A stretch of DNA of 64,000 nt from Planctomycetota bacterium (GTDB lineage: Bacteria > Planctomycetota > UBA8742 > UBA2392): the NCBI GenBank assembly GCA_019912315.1, contig JAIOJA010000054.1, positions 1 through 64,000 of the forward strand. The letters are read 5' to 3'. The notes beneath the pieces were generated by a model. It made no database searches. It saw nothing but the letters and a program-made list of their open reading frames with translations, and was not told the DNA's origin. Within the stretch, counting starts at the first letter, position 1. Each line of letters starts with the position of its first letter. Positions 53,409-60,729 of this stretch are shown here, in pieces. The translations under genes were made by a program, and so were the position numbers.

Positions 53409-54365
53409 TCACGTTGAGCCCGGTTTCATCAGGTTGCGAAGCAGACGCGCCAGAGCGTCCCTTTCTGCCTGCGGCCTGAAGGCGGGTTTCAGCGCCTTGC
53501 AACGGCGTTGCAGTTCGCGGCGGAAGCCGGCGTCGCGCTCGAACCGCTCCATCAGACCGGCCAGCGCGGCGGTGTCCCCGAACTCAAAATAGCCCGGATA
53601 GTCGTCGCCCAGCAGGCCCCTTGACCCGTCAATATTACTGGACAGCACCGGCGTGTCGCACACGCAGGCCTCGCCAATCACGTTGGCGCCGCCTTCCATG
53701 CGACTGGTCAGAACCAGCGCGTGGCTGCGCGCGATCAGGCGCATCACCTTCGCGTGCGGCAACTCACCGATGTAGCGGTAGCGCGGGTTGGCCGCTTCCT
53801 CTTTGCCGACCTCGTCCCGGTAGCGGTTGTCCAGTATCCCGCCGGCCTGCGCAATACGGATGCGCGAGTCCGCCGGCAGCAGGCGGGCCGCGGCAGCCGC
53901 GCGCAAAGGGTCTTTCTCGGGGCGCAGGTGCCCGACAACGCACATGTCCAGCGCGCGCTTTGATTTCCCCGGCAGCGGCTTCGGTGCACGCGTGCTTTGC
54001 GGGATGGCGCGGGCCTTGCCGCGATGCCGCGCGGGAAGTTGATGGATCGCCAGTGCCTGTAGCGTGACGATGGCGTCCGCCGCGTCCAGCGATTGCCGCG
54101 CGACCGCGTCTTCGTGAATATCCCGGTAGACATCCGTGCCGGTCAGCACCAGCACCAGCGGCGCGCTGCCGTTTACGGCCCGGATTGCCTTCGCCATTCG
54201 GCGCGCGTGCAGCGCGAAAATCACGTCGCGCTTTGCGCCGCTGTACCCGGTCGTGACCGTGACAGTGTGCTTGAGCGCGCGCAGAAGCCCGGCGTATCGG
54301 TCGGCCGTGATGCGGTTGCCGAGCCGGCTGTGCCGTGGTGCGGGCGTGATGATCTCAATGTTCAT
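53409..54365 (-). CDS. senB: Selenosugar synthase SenB (selenoneine pathway)
   Basis: A 318-residue GT-B glycosyltransferase with the SenB pattern (formerly a TIGR04348-type putative glycosyltransferase): IITPAPRHSRLGNRITADRYA, ALHARRMAKAI, LVLTGTDVYRDI, VVGHLRPEKDPLRAA, SRMEGGANVIGEA and LLGDDYPGYFEFGDTAALA. Known SenB joins selenophosphate to UDP-GlcNAc to give a selenosugar. It overlaps senA by 4 bp (ATGA, 54362-54365), the usual sen arrangement. The third gene, senC (SelD-like), is not in the window. Confidence 0.82.
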   Translation of the reverse strand: MNIEIITPAPRHSRLGNRITADRYAGLLRALKHTVTVTTGYSGAKRDVIFALHARRMAKAIRAVNGSAPLVLVLTGTDVYRDIHEDAVARQSLDAADAIVTLQALAIHQLPARHRGKARAIPQSTRAPKPLPGKSKRALDMCVVGHLRPEKDPLRAAAAARLLPADSRIRIAQAGGILDNRYRDEVGKEEAANPRYRYIGELPHAKVMRLIARSHALVLTSRMEGGANVIGEACVCDTPVLSSNIDGSRGLLGDDYPGYFEFGDTAALAGLMERFERDAGFRRELQRRCKALKPAFRPQAERDALARLLRNLMKPGST

Positions 54366-55651
54366 GTGCGCGCGCAGGTCCGGAAACCGGCGAACACATC
54401 GCGCCGCCAGGGTTGAAAAAAGTTGCGCCAGGTGTTCCAGATCATGTTCGCGGGGCAGGCCATTGCTCCGCCCTTCAGCACCTTGCGCTCATGGAACCAG
54501 GGCTCGGAATATTCCTTGTAAAAGCCGCGCTTGAAGCCGGGGAAGCCGGCAAACGTGTCGCTGGTCCACTCCCAGACGTTGCCGAGCATCTGACGGCAGC
54601 CGAACACGCTGTCGCCCTCAGGCAGGGCGGCGACGTCGCAGGTGTCCATGGCGTACCAGTTCAGGTTGGCGCGCCGCGGCGTGCTCGCGTCATCACCCCA
54701 GGGGTAGCGACGTTTGTATGCGCTCAGGTCTTTGGCGTCACTCGCGCTGGCGGCCGCTTCCCACTCGGCCTCGCTGGGCAGTCTTCGCCTGGCCCAGTTG
54801 CAGTACGCCTCGGCCTCGAACCAGCTCACGTGGATCACCGGCCTGTGCGCTTCCAGGTCGCGCCAATTGTCGAACACGCGCCGCTGCCAGGTGTCGCCTT
54901 CGCGCCGCCAGTAGATCGGGTGTTCGGCGCTTTCACTTTCACGCCACTTCCAGCCTTCGTCGCTCCAGAGTTCGCGATTGCCGTAGCCGCCGTCGTCAAC
55001 GAATGCCGCAAACTCGGATTGCGTGACCGGAGCTTTGGCGATTCTGTAAGGCTCCAGCTTTACGGTCTGCGGCGGGACTTCGTTGTCGAAGGCGAATTCG
55101 CCGTCGCGCGTCGCGCCCAGCACGAAATCGCCGCCCGGCACCTCGGCGTCACCGGGCAGCGCGCCCGCGGACTCGTACTCGCCGTGCTGTACGTTCAGCT
55201 TTGGCGCGGGGTAGCCGACGTTCTGGCGCATCCAGGTGAAGGCCTCGGCGTGCATCCCGGCGTGGTGCACGCTCAGCCAGGCGCGATACCAGGGCTCGGG
55301 CGCGAGCTCGTTTTCGTCCAGCCAGCGCAGGGTGTTGTCCGTGACCCGGTTGACGTATTCCAGAATCGCCGCGCGATCCGGCAGCGGCAGCTCCCAGCGC
55401 GTGTCGTGAAACACGGCAATCGAATCCCATAGCGCGTCGGCGTCGTCGCGCAGCATGGGCTGATTGCCGAAGTCGCGCAGGATGAACTTTTCGAAAAACC
55501 ACGCGACGTGCCCGATTTCCCAGTTGAATGGGTTCAGGATCTGCCGCTCAGGCACGATCAGTTCGTCGTCGGACAGGTCGGCGATGACTTCGAGGACGCG
55601 GCTGGTCGCGTCCCGGATTGCAGGCTTCAACTCATCGAGCCGACTGCTCAT
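54362..55651 (-). CDS. senA: Selenoneine synthase SenA (EgtB/FGE-like)
   Basis: A 429-residue EgtB-like nonheme iron enzyme. The N-terminal DinB-like domain has NPFNWEIGHVAWFFE and the H-x3-H-x-E iron motif in HAGMHAE (about residues 135-141). The C-terminal FGE-sulfatase domain has LPSEAEWE, GNVWEWTSDTF, and ends FFQPWRRDVFAGFRTCA, as in SenA. Known SenA joins selenosugar to hercynine. Close coupling to senB supports selenoneine over ergothioneine. An EgtD (hercynine) gene is not in the window. It overlaps the hemE end by 20 bp. Confidence 0.8.
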   Translation of the reverse strand: MSSRLDELKPAIRDATSRVLEVIADLSDDELIVPERQILNPFNWEIGHVAWFFEKFILRDFGNQPMLRDDADALWDSIAVFHDTRWELPLPDRAAILEYVNRVTDNTLRWLDENELAPEPWYRAWLSVHHAGMHAEAFTWMRQNVGYPAPKLNVQHGEYESAGALPGDAEVPGGDFVLGATRDGEFAFDNEVPPQTVKLEPYRIAKAPVTQSEFAAFVDDGGYGNRELWSDEGWKWRESESAEHPIYWRREGDTWQRRVFDNWRDLEAHRPVIHVSWFEAEAYCNWARRRLPSEAEWEAAASASDAKDLSAYKRRYPWGDDASTPRRANLNWYAMDTCDVAALPEGDSVFGCRQMLGNVWEWTSDTFAGFPGFKRGFYKEYSEPWFHERKVLKGGAMACPANMIWNTWRNFFQPWRRDVFAGFRTCART

Positions 55652-56750
55652 GGACGTAGTCTACAAGCGCCTTCACGTTGTCCACGGGGGTTTTGGGCAG
55701 GATGCCGTGCCCCAGGTTGAAGATGTGCCCGTCGCGCCCGCCCGCAGCGTCCAGCACTTCCTGGGCCTTCGACAGCACAACTTCGCGCGGCGCGAACAGG
55801 GACACCGGGTCCATGTTGCCCTGCACGGCCTTTGCGCCGATCTCCCAGCCGCGTTGCAACGGCGTGTGCCAGTCGATGCCAATCACGTCGGGTGCGGCTT
55901 GCATCATCTGCTCAAGCAGCGTCGCCGTGCCGGTGCCGAAGTAGATTACCGGCACGGAAGAGGCATCTGGCTCCCGCAGGGTGCCTGACACCTTTTCGCT
56001 ATCCCCGCCAGTAAAGGGGTCAGGCTCCGGAACGGTGCCTGACCCCTTTACTTCCCTGATAATCCGCTGCACGTGCGGGAAGACGTACTCGTGGTAGTCG
56101 AGCGGGCTCAGGCAGCCGACCCAGGAGTCGAAAATCTGGATCGCTTGCACGCCCCACTCGATCTGCGCGCGCAGGTACTCGATGATCTGCCCGGACAGCT
56201 TTTCCATCAGCACGCCCCAGGCGCCGGGGTCGCCGAGCATGATCTTCTTGGCCTCAATGTAATTGCGTGAGCCGCCGCCTTCGATCGCATAGGCGGCCAG
56301 TGTGAACGGCGCGCCCGCGAAGCCGATCAGCGGAATGTCAGGCGGAAGTTCGCGTCGGATGATCTTGATGGCGTCGCCGACGAAGGGCATCGACTCGCGC
56401 GGGTCGGGAGTATTCAGCGCGTCAATGTCCGCGCCGCTGCGCACCGGGTTGCCGATCTGCGGCCCGATGCCCTCCGGGTAATCGAGCTGCAAACCCATCG
56501 GCTCCAGGATCGGCAGCAGGTCGGCGAACAAAATGGCCGCGTCCACGCCCAGAATGCGCTGCGCGTCCAGGGTTACCTTGGCCGCAAGCTCGGGAGTCTT
56601 GCATAGCCCAAGGAAAGTCGTCTGCGCCCGAACGTCGCGGTACTCCTGCATATACCGCCCAGCCTGCCGCATGAGCCAGACCGGCGTGCAATCAACCGCC
56701 TCACCCCGGCAGGCTTTCAGAAAACGAGAGTTGTGTAGTCGTTCGTCCAT
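55632..56750 (-). CDS. hemE: Uroporphyrinogen decarboxylase with in-frame REP insertion
   Basis: A 372-residue HemE: the N-terminal PVWLMRQAGRYMQEYR (substrate Arg pair), ILFADLLPILEPMG (catalytic Asp region), GFAGAPFTLAAYAIEGGGS, and FNLGHGILPKTPVDNVKALV are intact. It decarboxylates uroporphyrinogen III. Between the FPHVQRIIREVKG helix and VPVIYFGTGT an extra stretch of about 28 residues (GTVPEPDPFTGGDSEKVSG and on) is encoded by a triple palindrome at 55983-56052. The insertion keeps frame and is surface-loop-like in composition. It overlaps senA by 20 bp. Confidence 0.92.
   Translation of the reverse strand: MDERLHNSRFLKACRGEAVDCTPVWLMRQAGRYMQEYRDVRAQTTFLGLCKTPELAAKVTLDAQRILGVDAAILFADLLPILEPMGLQLDYPEGIGPQIGNPVRSGADIDALNTPDPRESMPFVGDAIKIIRRELPPDIPLIGFAGAPFTLAAYAIEGGGSRNYIEAKKIMLGDPGAWGVLMEKLSGQIIEYLRAQIEWGVQAIQIFDSWVGCLSPLDYHEYVFPHVQRIIREVKGSGTVPEPDPFTGGDSEKVSGTLREPDASSVPVIYFGTGTATLLEQMMQAAPDVIGIDWHTPLQRGWEIGAKAVQGNMDPVSLFAPREVVLSKAQEVLDAAGGRDGHIFNLGHGILPKTPVDNVKALVDYVHEQSAR
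55983..56052. repeat. Triple REP-like palindrome inside hemE
   Basis: Three copies of the core GCCTGAC(C/A)CCTTT occur at 55983-55995 (+), 56013-56025 (-) and 56037-56049 (+). The last two form a perfect 16-bp inverted repeat (56010-56025 with 56037-56052). The intergenic hairpin at 17201 carries the same GCCTGACCC core. Confidence 0.75.
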
Positions 56751-56793: not shown

Positions 56794-56855
56794 AGCCCCA
56801 ACGAATAGGGCGCGAATAGCGGCATCCGCTCCACCGCTAACGCGGCGGGCTGTGA

Positions 56856-57404
56856 TCACCTGTCCCGCATCTCAGGCTCAAGATCGATGCCTAAACCATC
56901 GGCAAGTCGGTTCAGGTGATTAAAATAGCCGATGATCTGGGCGGCGCTTACTACTTGTTCTTCGGTCCAGCCTGCTTGCTTCAGCCCTTCAATGTCTTCG
57001 CGCCGACATTCAGCGGGCGTCAGTGTGAGCTTCTCGGCCCACTCGCACAGGGCCTTGTGCTGGGCTTCCAGCTTGCTTGTGCGGAAGTCTTCTTTCACTT
57101 GCTCGGCCAGTTCGGCGTCACGCGCCATGGTTGCCAGGTCTTCGGCGTGGGCGAGCGTTCAGTAGACGCAGCCGTTGATCTTGCTGACGACCGTGGCCAG
57201 CAGCTCGCGCTCCCAGCGGCGCAGGGGGCCCTTGCCGTGCATCACGTTGGCGTAAAACACCATCGTTGCGTCCAGCGCCTCGGGCGTGAGGGACTGAATC
57301 CGCAGGATGTTGAACACCTTGCCCGCCCGCGCCAGCCCACGGTCGTAATGCTCTTTCACGAGCCCGTCCGCGTCTTCCGGTTCAACCTGCCGCACGTAAG
57401 TCAT
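56856..57404 (-). CDS. AhpD-like peroxidase-related protein, putative selenoprotein (CxxU)
   Basis: Read through one TGA (57159-57161), this frame gives 182 residues of a complete carboxymuconolactone-decarboxylase/AhpD-like protein. Before the TGA: PEALDATMVFYANVMHGKG, RRWERELLATVVSKINGCVY; after it: TLAHAEDLATMARDAELAEQ. In relatives the active site is CxxC...H; here it reads C79-V-Y-TGA82-T-L-A-H86, so the TGA sits exactly at the catalytic second Cys. Selenocysteine is the best reading. I cannot make out a clear SECIS by eye. ATG 57404 overlaps the upstream transporter stop (TGATG). Usual gene callers would report two broken genes. Confidence 0.75.
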
Positions 57405-59071
57405 CACACCATTACCCTTACGACCACCTGCCCGGCTACCGTTACCAGAATGCTGGCGACGGCGAAAGCGGCCGCATAGCTGACGGCGGGCTCGTTGCTG
57501 TCCGCCGCGCGCTTTACCGCATTCAGTGCCGCGCTGCTGGTCATGCCGCCGCACAGGCTGCCCCAGACATCGACGGCGCGCATCTTGAACAGCAGCTTGC
57601 CCAGGCCCAGTGCCGCGACGGCCGGCAGCACCGTCACGATGATGCCGGCAACGGCCACGCGCCACACGGGGAAGTCCAGCCCGGCGATCAGCGCCTGTCC
57701 CGCCACGATGCCCGTTTCGCCGACAAACAGCAGCACTCCGAGCTCGCGCACGAGCTGGCGGGCGGCGCGCGGTACGTTCACGCTGATGCCGGTGAACTGG
57801 CGCCCCCAGCTAAGCAGCACCCCCATGATCAGCAGCCCGCCGGCGGCGCCCAGGCTGAAATCCCAGCCGAAGGGGCGCAGGTGAAACTGGCCGATCAGCA
57901 GCCCGAGTACAATGCCGCCGGCGTAAATCGCGATGTCGGTGGTGTGCGTGCCGGGCTCAAAGCGCCCGAGCTCTTTGGCGACGGCGCGCACGGCGTCGCG
58001 CTGCCCGATGATTTCGACGACGTCGTGGCGCATCAGCACGACGTCGCCGCCGGGCTCAAGCACTTCGCGCCCGCGCTCGATTTTGCCGATCAGGCAGCGG
58101 TAGCGCCCCAGCAGGTCAAGGTCCTTGAGTGATTTGCCGTGCGCGCCCTTCGCGATCACCTGCACGCGGCGTGGCGCGGGCATACGGTGGCGCAGTTCGG
58201 CGTCATAGACTTCGCTGCCCACGAGCGCCGCGAAGTCCTGCAGCTCGTCAAGCCGACCCACGACCAGCAAATGATCGCCGAGTTGCAGCTCCGAATTCGC
58301 GTCGGCCACCATCACCTCGTCGCCGCGGTGAATGCGCGAAATAAAGCAGCCGGTGCGGTTTGTCAGGTTCAGGGTCTTCAGCGCCTGCGCACAGATGCTT
58401 TCTTTCTCGACGGTAAAGGCGCGGGTGAGCTCCGGTGCGCCCTTGCGGTGGATGCGCGTTTTGCCGCTGTCGTCGGTCTGCTCGTCCTCGCTGAGCATTC
58501 CTTTGCTGAGGTCCGTCTTCGTGATGTAGGGCAGGGACTGAATCATCAGCACCAGCCCCACCAGCCCGATCGGGTAGGTCAGCGCGAACGCCACAGACAG
58601 ATGCGCGGCGTCCATGGCTTCTTCAGAGGCCGCGGCGAAAGTCGCCGCGCTGGTCAAGCCGCCGGCCAGCACGCCCGCCGTTGTTGACGCGTCAAGGCCC
58701 AGCAGGCTGCCCGCCACGATCGCCAGCACGACCGCGACGACAACCACGGTTGAGCCCACGGCCACGTACTTCCAGCCAAGCGACGTGCGCAGCGATGTAA
58801 TGAACTGCGGCCCGGCGTCAAAGCCCACCGAGTAAATAAACAGCGCGAACCCGAAGTAGCCAACAGTCAAAGCCGGCACCTGCCCGCCGTACAGCGTCTC
58901 CAGGGACAACCCCGCGTAGCCCGTCAGCAGCGCGACCGCCAGTGTCCCGCCCGCCGGGCCCAGCGAAAACCCCCGCCAGTTCAGGCGACCCAGCAGGTAG
59001 CCGAACGTCACGACAAGCATCAGCCCGGCCAGGGGCGCCTGCGACAACATTTCCAGCACGGCATTCATCAC
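57404..59071 (-). CDS. AspT/YidE/YbjL-type transporter with TrkA-C domains (copy 1)
   Basis: A 555-residue transporter of the aspartate:alanine exchanger family. Two membrane blocks of about five helices (residues 15-180 and 380-555) flank two cytosolic RCK_C/TrkA-C domains (about 210-290 and 295-370; for example LQLGDHLLVVGRLDELQDFAALVG). Each membrane half carries the family repeat (VGFDAGPQFITSLR in the first half, GGMTSSAALNAVKRAADSN in the second). Substrate unknown. It overlaps both neighbours and is probably translated in one run with copy 2 and the AhpD-like gene. TTGACGCGTCAA is at 58684-58695. Confidence 0.85.
   Translation of the reverse strand: MMNAVLEMLSQAPLAGLMLVVTFGYLLGRLNWRGFSLGPAGGTLAVALLTGYAGLSLETLYGGQVPALTVGYFGFALFIYSVGFDAGPQFITSLRTSLGWKYVAVGSTVVVVAVVLAIVAGSLLGLDASTTAGVLAGGLTSAATFAAASEEAMDAAHLSVAFALTYPIGLVGLVLMIQSLPYITKTDLSKGMLSEDEQTDDSGKTRIHRKGAPELTRAFTVEKESICAQALKTLNLTNRTGCFISRIHRGDEVMVADANSELQLGDHLLVVGRLDELQDFAALVGSEVYDAELRHRMPAPRRVQVIAKGAHGKSLKDLDLLGRYRCLIGKIERGREVLEPGGDVVLMRHDVVEIIGQRDAVRAVAKELGRFEPGTHTTDIAIYAGGIVLGLLIGQFHLRPFGWDFSLGAAGGLLIMGVLLSWGRQFTGISVNVPRAARQLVRELGVLLFVGETGIVAGQALIAGLDFPVWRVAVAGIIVTVLPAVAALGLGKLLFKMRAVDVWGSLCGGMTSSAALNAVKRAADSNEPAVSYAAAFAVASILVTVAGQVVVRVMV
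58684..58695. repeat. HIP-like palindrome TTGACGCGTCAA in transporter gene
   Basis: The 12-bp core, read as Leu-Asp-Ala-Ser in an AspT-type transporter on the minus strand. Confidence 0.55.
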
Positions 59072-60729
59072 GTCAGCGCCACGGCAAGTTGGCCGGCCAG
59101 AGTAATCAGCACGCTCGCCACCGCATAGGTCGCCGCGTAGCCCACCACGGCGTCACTGTTGCCCGCCTGCCGGTTCACGGCTTCCAGGCTGGTGGTGCTG
59201 GTCATGCCGCCGCACAGCCCGCCCCAGGCGTCGATCGGCTTCAGGCGCAGCACCTTGCCCGCGAACAGCAGCGTGCCCAGCACGGTCAGCGTCGTACACG
59301 CGAAGCCGGTCACGAGAACGGCCCACGGCGATATGTCGAGACCGGCCTGCAGCGCCGCGCCGCCGCGCACCCCGGCCTCGGAGACGAACAGCAATATGCC
59401 AAGGTCACGCACAAGCTGGCGGGCGGGCTTCGGCACGTTCGCGGAAAAACGCCCCACGCGACGGAAGCGCCCCAGCAGCAGCCCGACCAGCAGCAGCCCG
59501 CCCGCGGCGCCCATGGACAGCCCGACGCCCCCGAGCTCAATGCGCAGGTGCCCAAGCAGCAGCCCGGCAAGAATGCCCAGCGCGTAGATCGCGATGTTGG
59601 TTTCGTATTCGGGCTGCTCCAGAAACCCGATGCGCGTGGCGGCGTCGCGTATGCGCGCCTGTCGCCCCACCACTTCCAGCACGTCGAAGCGCTGCAACTC
59701 GAGCGACCCCACGGGCTCCAGGTACTGGTGCTCGCGCTCCACCCGCACCACCAGGCACTTGTCGCGACCCAGCAGGTCGAGCTCAGACAGCGTTCGGCCA
59801 ATCGCGGCCTTGTTCGCCACCAGGATCCGCCGCGGCGACGGCACGCTGTTGCGCAGCACCGTGTCGTACTTTTCGGGCCCGATCAACGCCTCCAGTTTCT
59901 CAAGCGCAACCAGCTTGCCGCTTGCCATCACGATGTCGCCCAGCTTCAGCACCATCTCGGGGCCGGGCAGCAGCACCTCGTCGCCGCGCCGGACGCGCGT
60001 CACCACGCACCCCGTAGTCGCCGGCAGGCGCAAGTCACGCAGGCTTTTGCCGTCCGATTCCGGGTTCTCAACCAGGTACGATCGCGCGCGTGCCAGCGTG
60101 CTTTCGCGCAGGCTTACTTCGCCGCCGTCACCCTCGGTCGTGTCTTCCGTGCCGGCCGCGAGCGGGCGACGCACCAGCCGCGGCAGAACGGCAACCATCA
60201 GCAGCAGCCCAAGCTGCCCCCAGGGATAGGCCAGCGCGTACGCGACAGACAGGCGCCCGATTTCCGGTGCGGCCTCGGACGCCGCGACCAGCGCTGGCGT
60301 GGATGTCATCGCGCCCGCAAGCGCGCCCGCCGCGGAAGACGACTCCAGCCCGAACAGGTACGCGCCGCCGACGGCCGTCCCCAGCGCCAGCACGTTGGTG
60401 ACGGCAGCCAGCGAGACGAACTTCAGCCCGCTGCCCGCGAGCGCCGAAAAAAACCGCGGGCCGGCCTCAAAGCCGATGGCGTATATGAACAACGCGAAGC
60501 CGAAGCTGCCGATGGTCATGCGCGGCAGGTTGCCGTTGTCGGCGCCGTACAGCGCGTCGAAATTCATGCCCAGATAGCCCAGCACCAGCGCCATCAGCAG
60601 CACGCCCCCGGAAGGGCTTAGCCCGATGCCGCGCCACTCCAGGCGCCCGACCAGCCAGCCGAGCGCGACCACCAGCATGATGCCGCCCAGCGGGATGTCG
60701 TTCAGGTACTCAATGAGTGTGCGCAACAC
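59068..60729 (-). CDS. AspT/YidE/YbjL-type transporter with TrkA-C domains (copy 2)
   Basis: A 553-residue paralogue of the preceding gene with the same layout: membrane half (IGFEAGPRFFSALAGS, ALAGAMTSTPALVAASEAAPE), two TrkA-C domains (LKLGDIVMASGKLVALEKLEALIG; then a second ending near residue 370), and a second membrane half (WGGLCGGMTSTTSLEAVNRQ). A tandem pair could form a heteromer. GTG start at 60729 with GAGG upstream. Its stop overlaps copy 1 start by 4 bp. Confidence 0.85.
   Translation of the reverse strand: MLRTLIEYLNDIPLGGIMLVVALGWLVGRLEWRGIGLSPSGGVLLMALVLGYLGMNFDALYGADNGNLPRMTIGSFGFALFIYAIGFEAGPRFFSALAGSGLKFVSLAAVTNVLALGTAVGGAYLFGLESSSAAGALAGAMTSTPALVAASEAAPEIGRLSVAYALAYPWGQLGLLLMVAVLPRLVRRPLAAGTEDTTEGDGGEVSLRESTLARARSYLVENPESDGKSLRDLRLPATTGCVVTRVRRGDEVLLPGPEMVLKLGDIVMASGKLVALEKLEALIGPEKYDTVLRNSVPSPRRILVANKAAIGRTLSELDLLGRDKCLVVRVEREHQYLEPVGSLELQRFDVLEVVGRQARIRDAATRIGFLEQPEYETNIAIYALGILAGLLLGHLRIELGGVGLSMGAAGGLLLVGLLLGRFRRVGRFSANVPKPARQLVRDLGILLFVSEAGVRGGAALQAGLDISPWAVLVTGFACTTLTVLGTLLFAGKVLRLKPIDAWGGLCGGMTSTTSLEAVNRQAGNSDAVVGYAATYAVASVLITLAGQLAVALT

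Follow-up and report, generated by a model that had tools for sequence, protein, structure and literature searches.

The gene described here lies on the minus strand of the window, i.e. the whole analysed stretch of 64,000 nucleotides (positions 1 to 64,000 of contig JAIOJA010000054.1 from Planctomycetota bacterium, assembly GCA_019912315.1), and is predicted with high confidence to encode a genuine selenocysteine (Sec)-containing AhpD-like peroxidase/thiol oxidoreductase. The basis of this prediction is computational and comprises the reading frame, codon conservation, selection, the Sec machinery and gene co-occurrence, from which we infer Sec insertion and peroxidase chemistry. A preliminary description had already proposed a CxxU selenoprotein, without mentioning the minus-strand location; this reading is now strongly supported by the conserved TGA, the full sel machinery, co-occurrence with selA and covariation in a SECIS-like hairpin of the family. 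Coordinates are collected in Table 1.

The frame starts with ATG at 57404, is coding down to 56856 and ends with a terminal TGA (56853-56855). Its sole internal stop is the TGA of codon 82 (57161-57159), within the motif N-G-C79-V-Y-U82-T-L-A-H86, and the read-through product has 182 residues (MTYVRQ...NGCVYUTLAHAEDL...EMRDR). As had been claimed, the frame remains open past this TGA with AhpD/CMD sequence on either side; translation and family matches agreed on this, and coding periodicity was present both 5' and 3' of the codon. Under the standard code the gene is split, its upstream part stopping at the TGA in a 168-aa ORF with a false start (57159-57665) and its downstream part forming a 90-aa ORF (56856-57128). 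Ordinary annotation would therefore break the gene into two fragments, as anticipated, and the selenoprotein gene was confirmed here from the raw sequence. Elsewhere in the window, further candidates for TGA read-through had the appearance of antisense shadows or of a real gene end.

Table 1. Location of the selenoprotein gene, its key elements and its adjacent genes in the window
Feature	Position	Strand	Basis or remark
AhpD-like/CMD-family selenoprotein gene (TIGR01926)	56853..57404	(-)	translation, family matches, orthologues
In-frame TGA, predicted Sec U82, second position of CxxU	57159..57161	(-)	TGA in 51 aligned sequences, Cys in 5
Cys79 codon, first residue of CxxU	57168..57170	(-)	residue numbering of translation
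Candidate SECIS, imperfect two-tier hairpin just after UGA	57119..57161	(-)	-13.1 kcal/mol; outside published bacterial model
AspT/YidE-type antiporter gene, upstream	57404..59071	(-)	stop overlaps selenoprotein start by one base (TGATG)
hemE, conserved downstream neighbour	55632..56750	(-)	family match, neighbour comparison

Conservation of the in-frame TGA and the Sec machinery

The aligned codon, read base by base, was TGA in 51 of 56 homologues (window copy included) and TGT or TGC in the other five; this ratio is not a frequency, because the five Cys forms were fetched deliberately. All 51 TGA sequences share one aligned codon, which corresponds to the second Cys position of CxxC (C79-V-Y-U82), exactly where the preliminary description had placed it. 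The in-frame TGA is thus conserved and occupies the position of a redox Cys, and homologues with Cys there exist. The TGA homologues belonged to Planctomycetota and to one deltaproteobacterial bin, with identities down to 31%.

When 84,980 species genomes were scanned, seven relatives emerged: three planctomycete bins (72-83% identity) and the deltaproteobacterial bin (31%) displayed TGA at the same codon, while three proteobacterial relatives carried Cys at the Sec site. Within the phylum, homologue matches were found in 228 of 392 genomes, and nearly every strong match contained one TGA. At least 120 of these 392 sampled Planctomycetota genomes harbored a TGA copy, the Sec form of the AhpD-like protein being widespread across the phylum. 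In one genome (G071, contig C155, 92878-94033), two adjacent paralogues of the family were encountered, one with and one without the in-frame TGA; this pair should be useful for the study of Sec/Cys exchange.

Comparison with close relatives gave dN values of 0.13-0.30 and dS values of 1.1-1.6 for the part 3' of the TGA (dN/dS about 0.1-0.2); since dN is far below dS, this part is translated and selected. The position of the TGA at one aligned codon in 51 homologues, the coding periodicity on both sides and this purifying selection downstream exclude chance. The preliminary description had argued that a random nonsense mutation would rarely hit this codon; the same TGA occurs in the 50 other homologues.

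All four components of the Sec system (selA, selB, selC and selD), whose presence had been left to be checked, were found in the host genome, as expected for a selenoprotein gene. The selA match scored 552 bits and adjoins a tRNA-Sec gene with anticodon TCA; family searches returned selB at 332 bits and selD at 403 bits. This selD is a selenoprotein gene too, its usual Sec site being encoded by an in-frame TGA (HGAGUGCK; contig C52, 40679-41602 region). A strong selA match was present in 115 of the 120 genomes with a TGA copy versus 126 of the 272 others (392 genomes; Fisher p 3e-24, a value that overstates independence because the genomes are related to each other). The five TGA-bearing genomes lacking a strong selA match were all draft bins. 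Cys forms occurred both in genomes with selA and in genomes without it.

Hairpin following the UGA and alternative readings of codon 82

The published bacterial SECIS model, as quoted in PMC13188914, requires a loop of 3-9 nt containing a G, located 16-37 nt after the UGA, and a stability of -7.5 kcal/mol; a subset of elements is known to escape it (PMC13188914). In our own implementation of this model, the bacterial SECIS search suggested in the preliminary description recovered no textbook element after the TGA of the window copy, where the best candidate reached -4.5 kcal/mol. The hairpin of this copy did not exceed synonymous recodings in stability (z 0.16), and Rfam gave nothing over threshold in the SECIS region. 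The consensus fold of nine close sequences contained no supported structure; covariation among these nine was not significant, and the two-tier model did not rise above shuffles. This weak, non-textbook hairpin is the main weak point of the selenoprotein case.

At the family level, a SECIS-like hairpin is conserved, as is expected of a selenoprotein gene. The mRNA of orthologues outside the close clade of the window copy can fold into GACCUCC-GGUC-GGAGGUC or a close variant of it, with a loop (GGUC among others) 24-25 nt past the UGA, within the published range. Among 41 distant orthologues, seven of the eight pairs displayed two-sided changes, and the covariation score was higher than in any of 500 shuffles or in any slid register. 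Synonymous recoding served as control because the hairpin region is coding: observed pairing was 75%, versus 59.9 +/- 1.9% (maximum 65.5%) in 1000 protein-preserving recodings. On average across the 51 genes, the segment immediately following the UGA was the most structured of those tested (mean z -1.02), several upstream segments coming near. A strong hairpin in a different register, at 17-18 nt, was found in four members of the window's own family (L028, L030, L031 and L034). It is conceivable, albeit rather doubtful, that the SECIS of this planctomycete family moved or relaxed, from the hairpin at 24-25 nt to one at 15-18 nt or to a long imperfect two-tier structure; SelB in this family may therefore recognise a different signal.

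The lack of a textbook SECIS in the window copy would suit a nonsense mutation that left a decaying AhpD pseudogene stopping at codon 82. The plain stop and decay in homologues, named in the preliminary description as grounds against a selenoprotein, were nevertheless absent: the TGA is conserved in the 50 other homologues and the part downstream is under purifying selection, so that a pseudogene is very improbable and can be considered refuted. The genome that contains the window is a draft of 87 contigs, in which a TGC might have been misread as TGA through sequencing or assembly error, but the TGA occupies this codon in independent assemblies from many genera; this explanation is likewise refuted and its probability negligible. 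The Cys found at the site in some homologues would be compatible with decoding of UGA as another residue, either Cys or, by a change of code, Trp. A global reassignment of UGA is contradicted by its use as terminal stop of both the selenoprotein gene and the upstream antiporter gene, and the Sec system of the genome is complete and includes a Sec-type SelD; decoding as a residue other than Sec is accordingly highly unlikely.

Genomic neighbourhood and the senA-senB genes

The overlap between the antiporter stop and the selenoprotein start suggests co-translation. The antiporter belongs to a tandem pair of AspT/YidE-type antiporters (57404-60729, minus strand) that have diverged, carry TrkA_C domains and both scored under the equivalog cut-off. 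Close relatives shared hemE, recA and AspT as neighbours, and hemE lay downstream of the selenoprotein gene in six loci of the family, including that of the window. Beyond the close family, the search for shared neighbours found none, the commonest clusters being shadow ORFs antisense to the gene. In one close relative (L056, 3501-6835), the antiporter gene is separated from the selenoprotein gene by a cassette whose genes, judged by eye, resemble those for a TetR regulator, a membrane-fusion protein and an MFS exporter.

A senB-senA pair is located between hemE and FHA genes (53409-55651, minus strand). SenA (456 bits, cut-off 420) and SenB (370 bits, cut-off 300) are authentic according to curated cut-offs. 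The preliminary description had placed the selenoprotein gene in a run with these genes; both are indeed real and nearby, but the arrangement is not conserved, since relatives keep hemE without senAB at this place. In two of them (L056 and L057), the corresponding interval is occupied by another small gene, which is encoded on the opposite strand. By comparison of the loci, senAB seems to have been gained by or moved to the window locus.

Membership of the gene in a selenoneine (senA-senB) operon, and a function together with selenoneine, would concern its role only and would be compatible with the selenoprotein reading. The senA and senB genes, lying downstream at a distance of about 1.2-3.4 kb and on the same strand, speak for it, whereas relatives bearing the orthologue lack senAB at the locus, SenA is encoded on a different contig in five genomes with both genes (G204, G136, G047, G086 and G256), and a terminator-like hairpin (56794-56775) separates the gene from hemE-senA. 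Such an operon is improbable and was rejected, no conserved linkage to the selenoprotein gene being apparent in the genomic context of relatives; the senA-senB association provides no foundation for further claims.

Active site and known relatives

The predicted selenoprotein possesses E67, C79, Y81, U82 and H86, i.e. the CxxU motif plus the relay Glu and His of AhpD, as is characteristic of the family. SelB and tRNA-Sec would insert Sec at UGA 82, presumably directed by an mRNA hairpin just 3' of it. The U82 selenolate would most likely attack the hydroperoxide; oxidised U82 would then be resolved by C79 as a selenenyl-sulfide, to be recycled by a putative thioredoxin-type or thiol reductant. 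An oxidative-defence role may be envisaged.

The spacing of these residues equals that of the relay Glu36-Cys48-Tyr50-Cys51-His55 in PA0269 of P. aeruginosa (PMC3141380). M. tuberculosis AhpD (Glu118, Cys130, His132, Cys133 and His137; PMC3141380) also matches, except that Tyr81 here corresponds to His132. Both proteins are distant in sequence from the window protein.

Alignment to AhpD-like proteins, also recommended earlier, assigned residues 3-177 of the read-through protein to TIGR01926 (NCBIfam; 139.7 bits, cut-off 81.8), while Pfam CMD PF02627 scored 34.8 bits (cut-off 23). The closest solved structures, PDB 6k40 (E 7e-30) and 2oyo, are Cys forms that align over nearly full length and display CVYC/CLYC in place of CVYU. 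The alkylhydroperoxidase-related (seleno)protein family NF041238 shares a related domain, and its CFYUT resembles the C-x-Y-U-T motif found here; the window protein stands outside it because its score of 69.3 bits is under the cut-off of 175.

AhpD-like CxxU selenoproteins were first reported in Sargasso Sea data (PMC1088965) and also occur in ocean survey data (PMC2398784), which agrees with their stated marine provenance. Selenoproteins of Planctomycetes were reported previously in a study whose main text is without AhpD (PMC4807772), and the literature search found no paper describing an AhpD-like Sec family in Planctomycetota. The TIGR01926 AhpD-like CxxU protein is a listed predicted selenoprotein family (PMC13188914 Table 1, citing an earlier survey). 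The window protein differs from it in host lineage and neighbourhood, and in the weak or shifted SECIS-like hairpin of its close clade; family model, CxxU motif and Sec at the second position are all shared. As this family is already listed, the gene is a well-supported further member of a known selenoprotein family.
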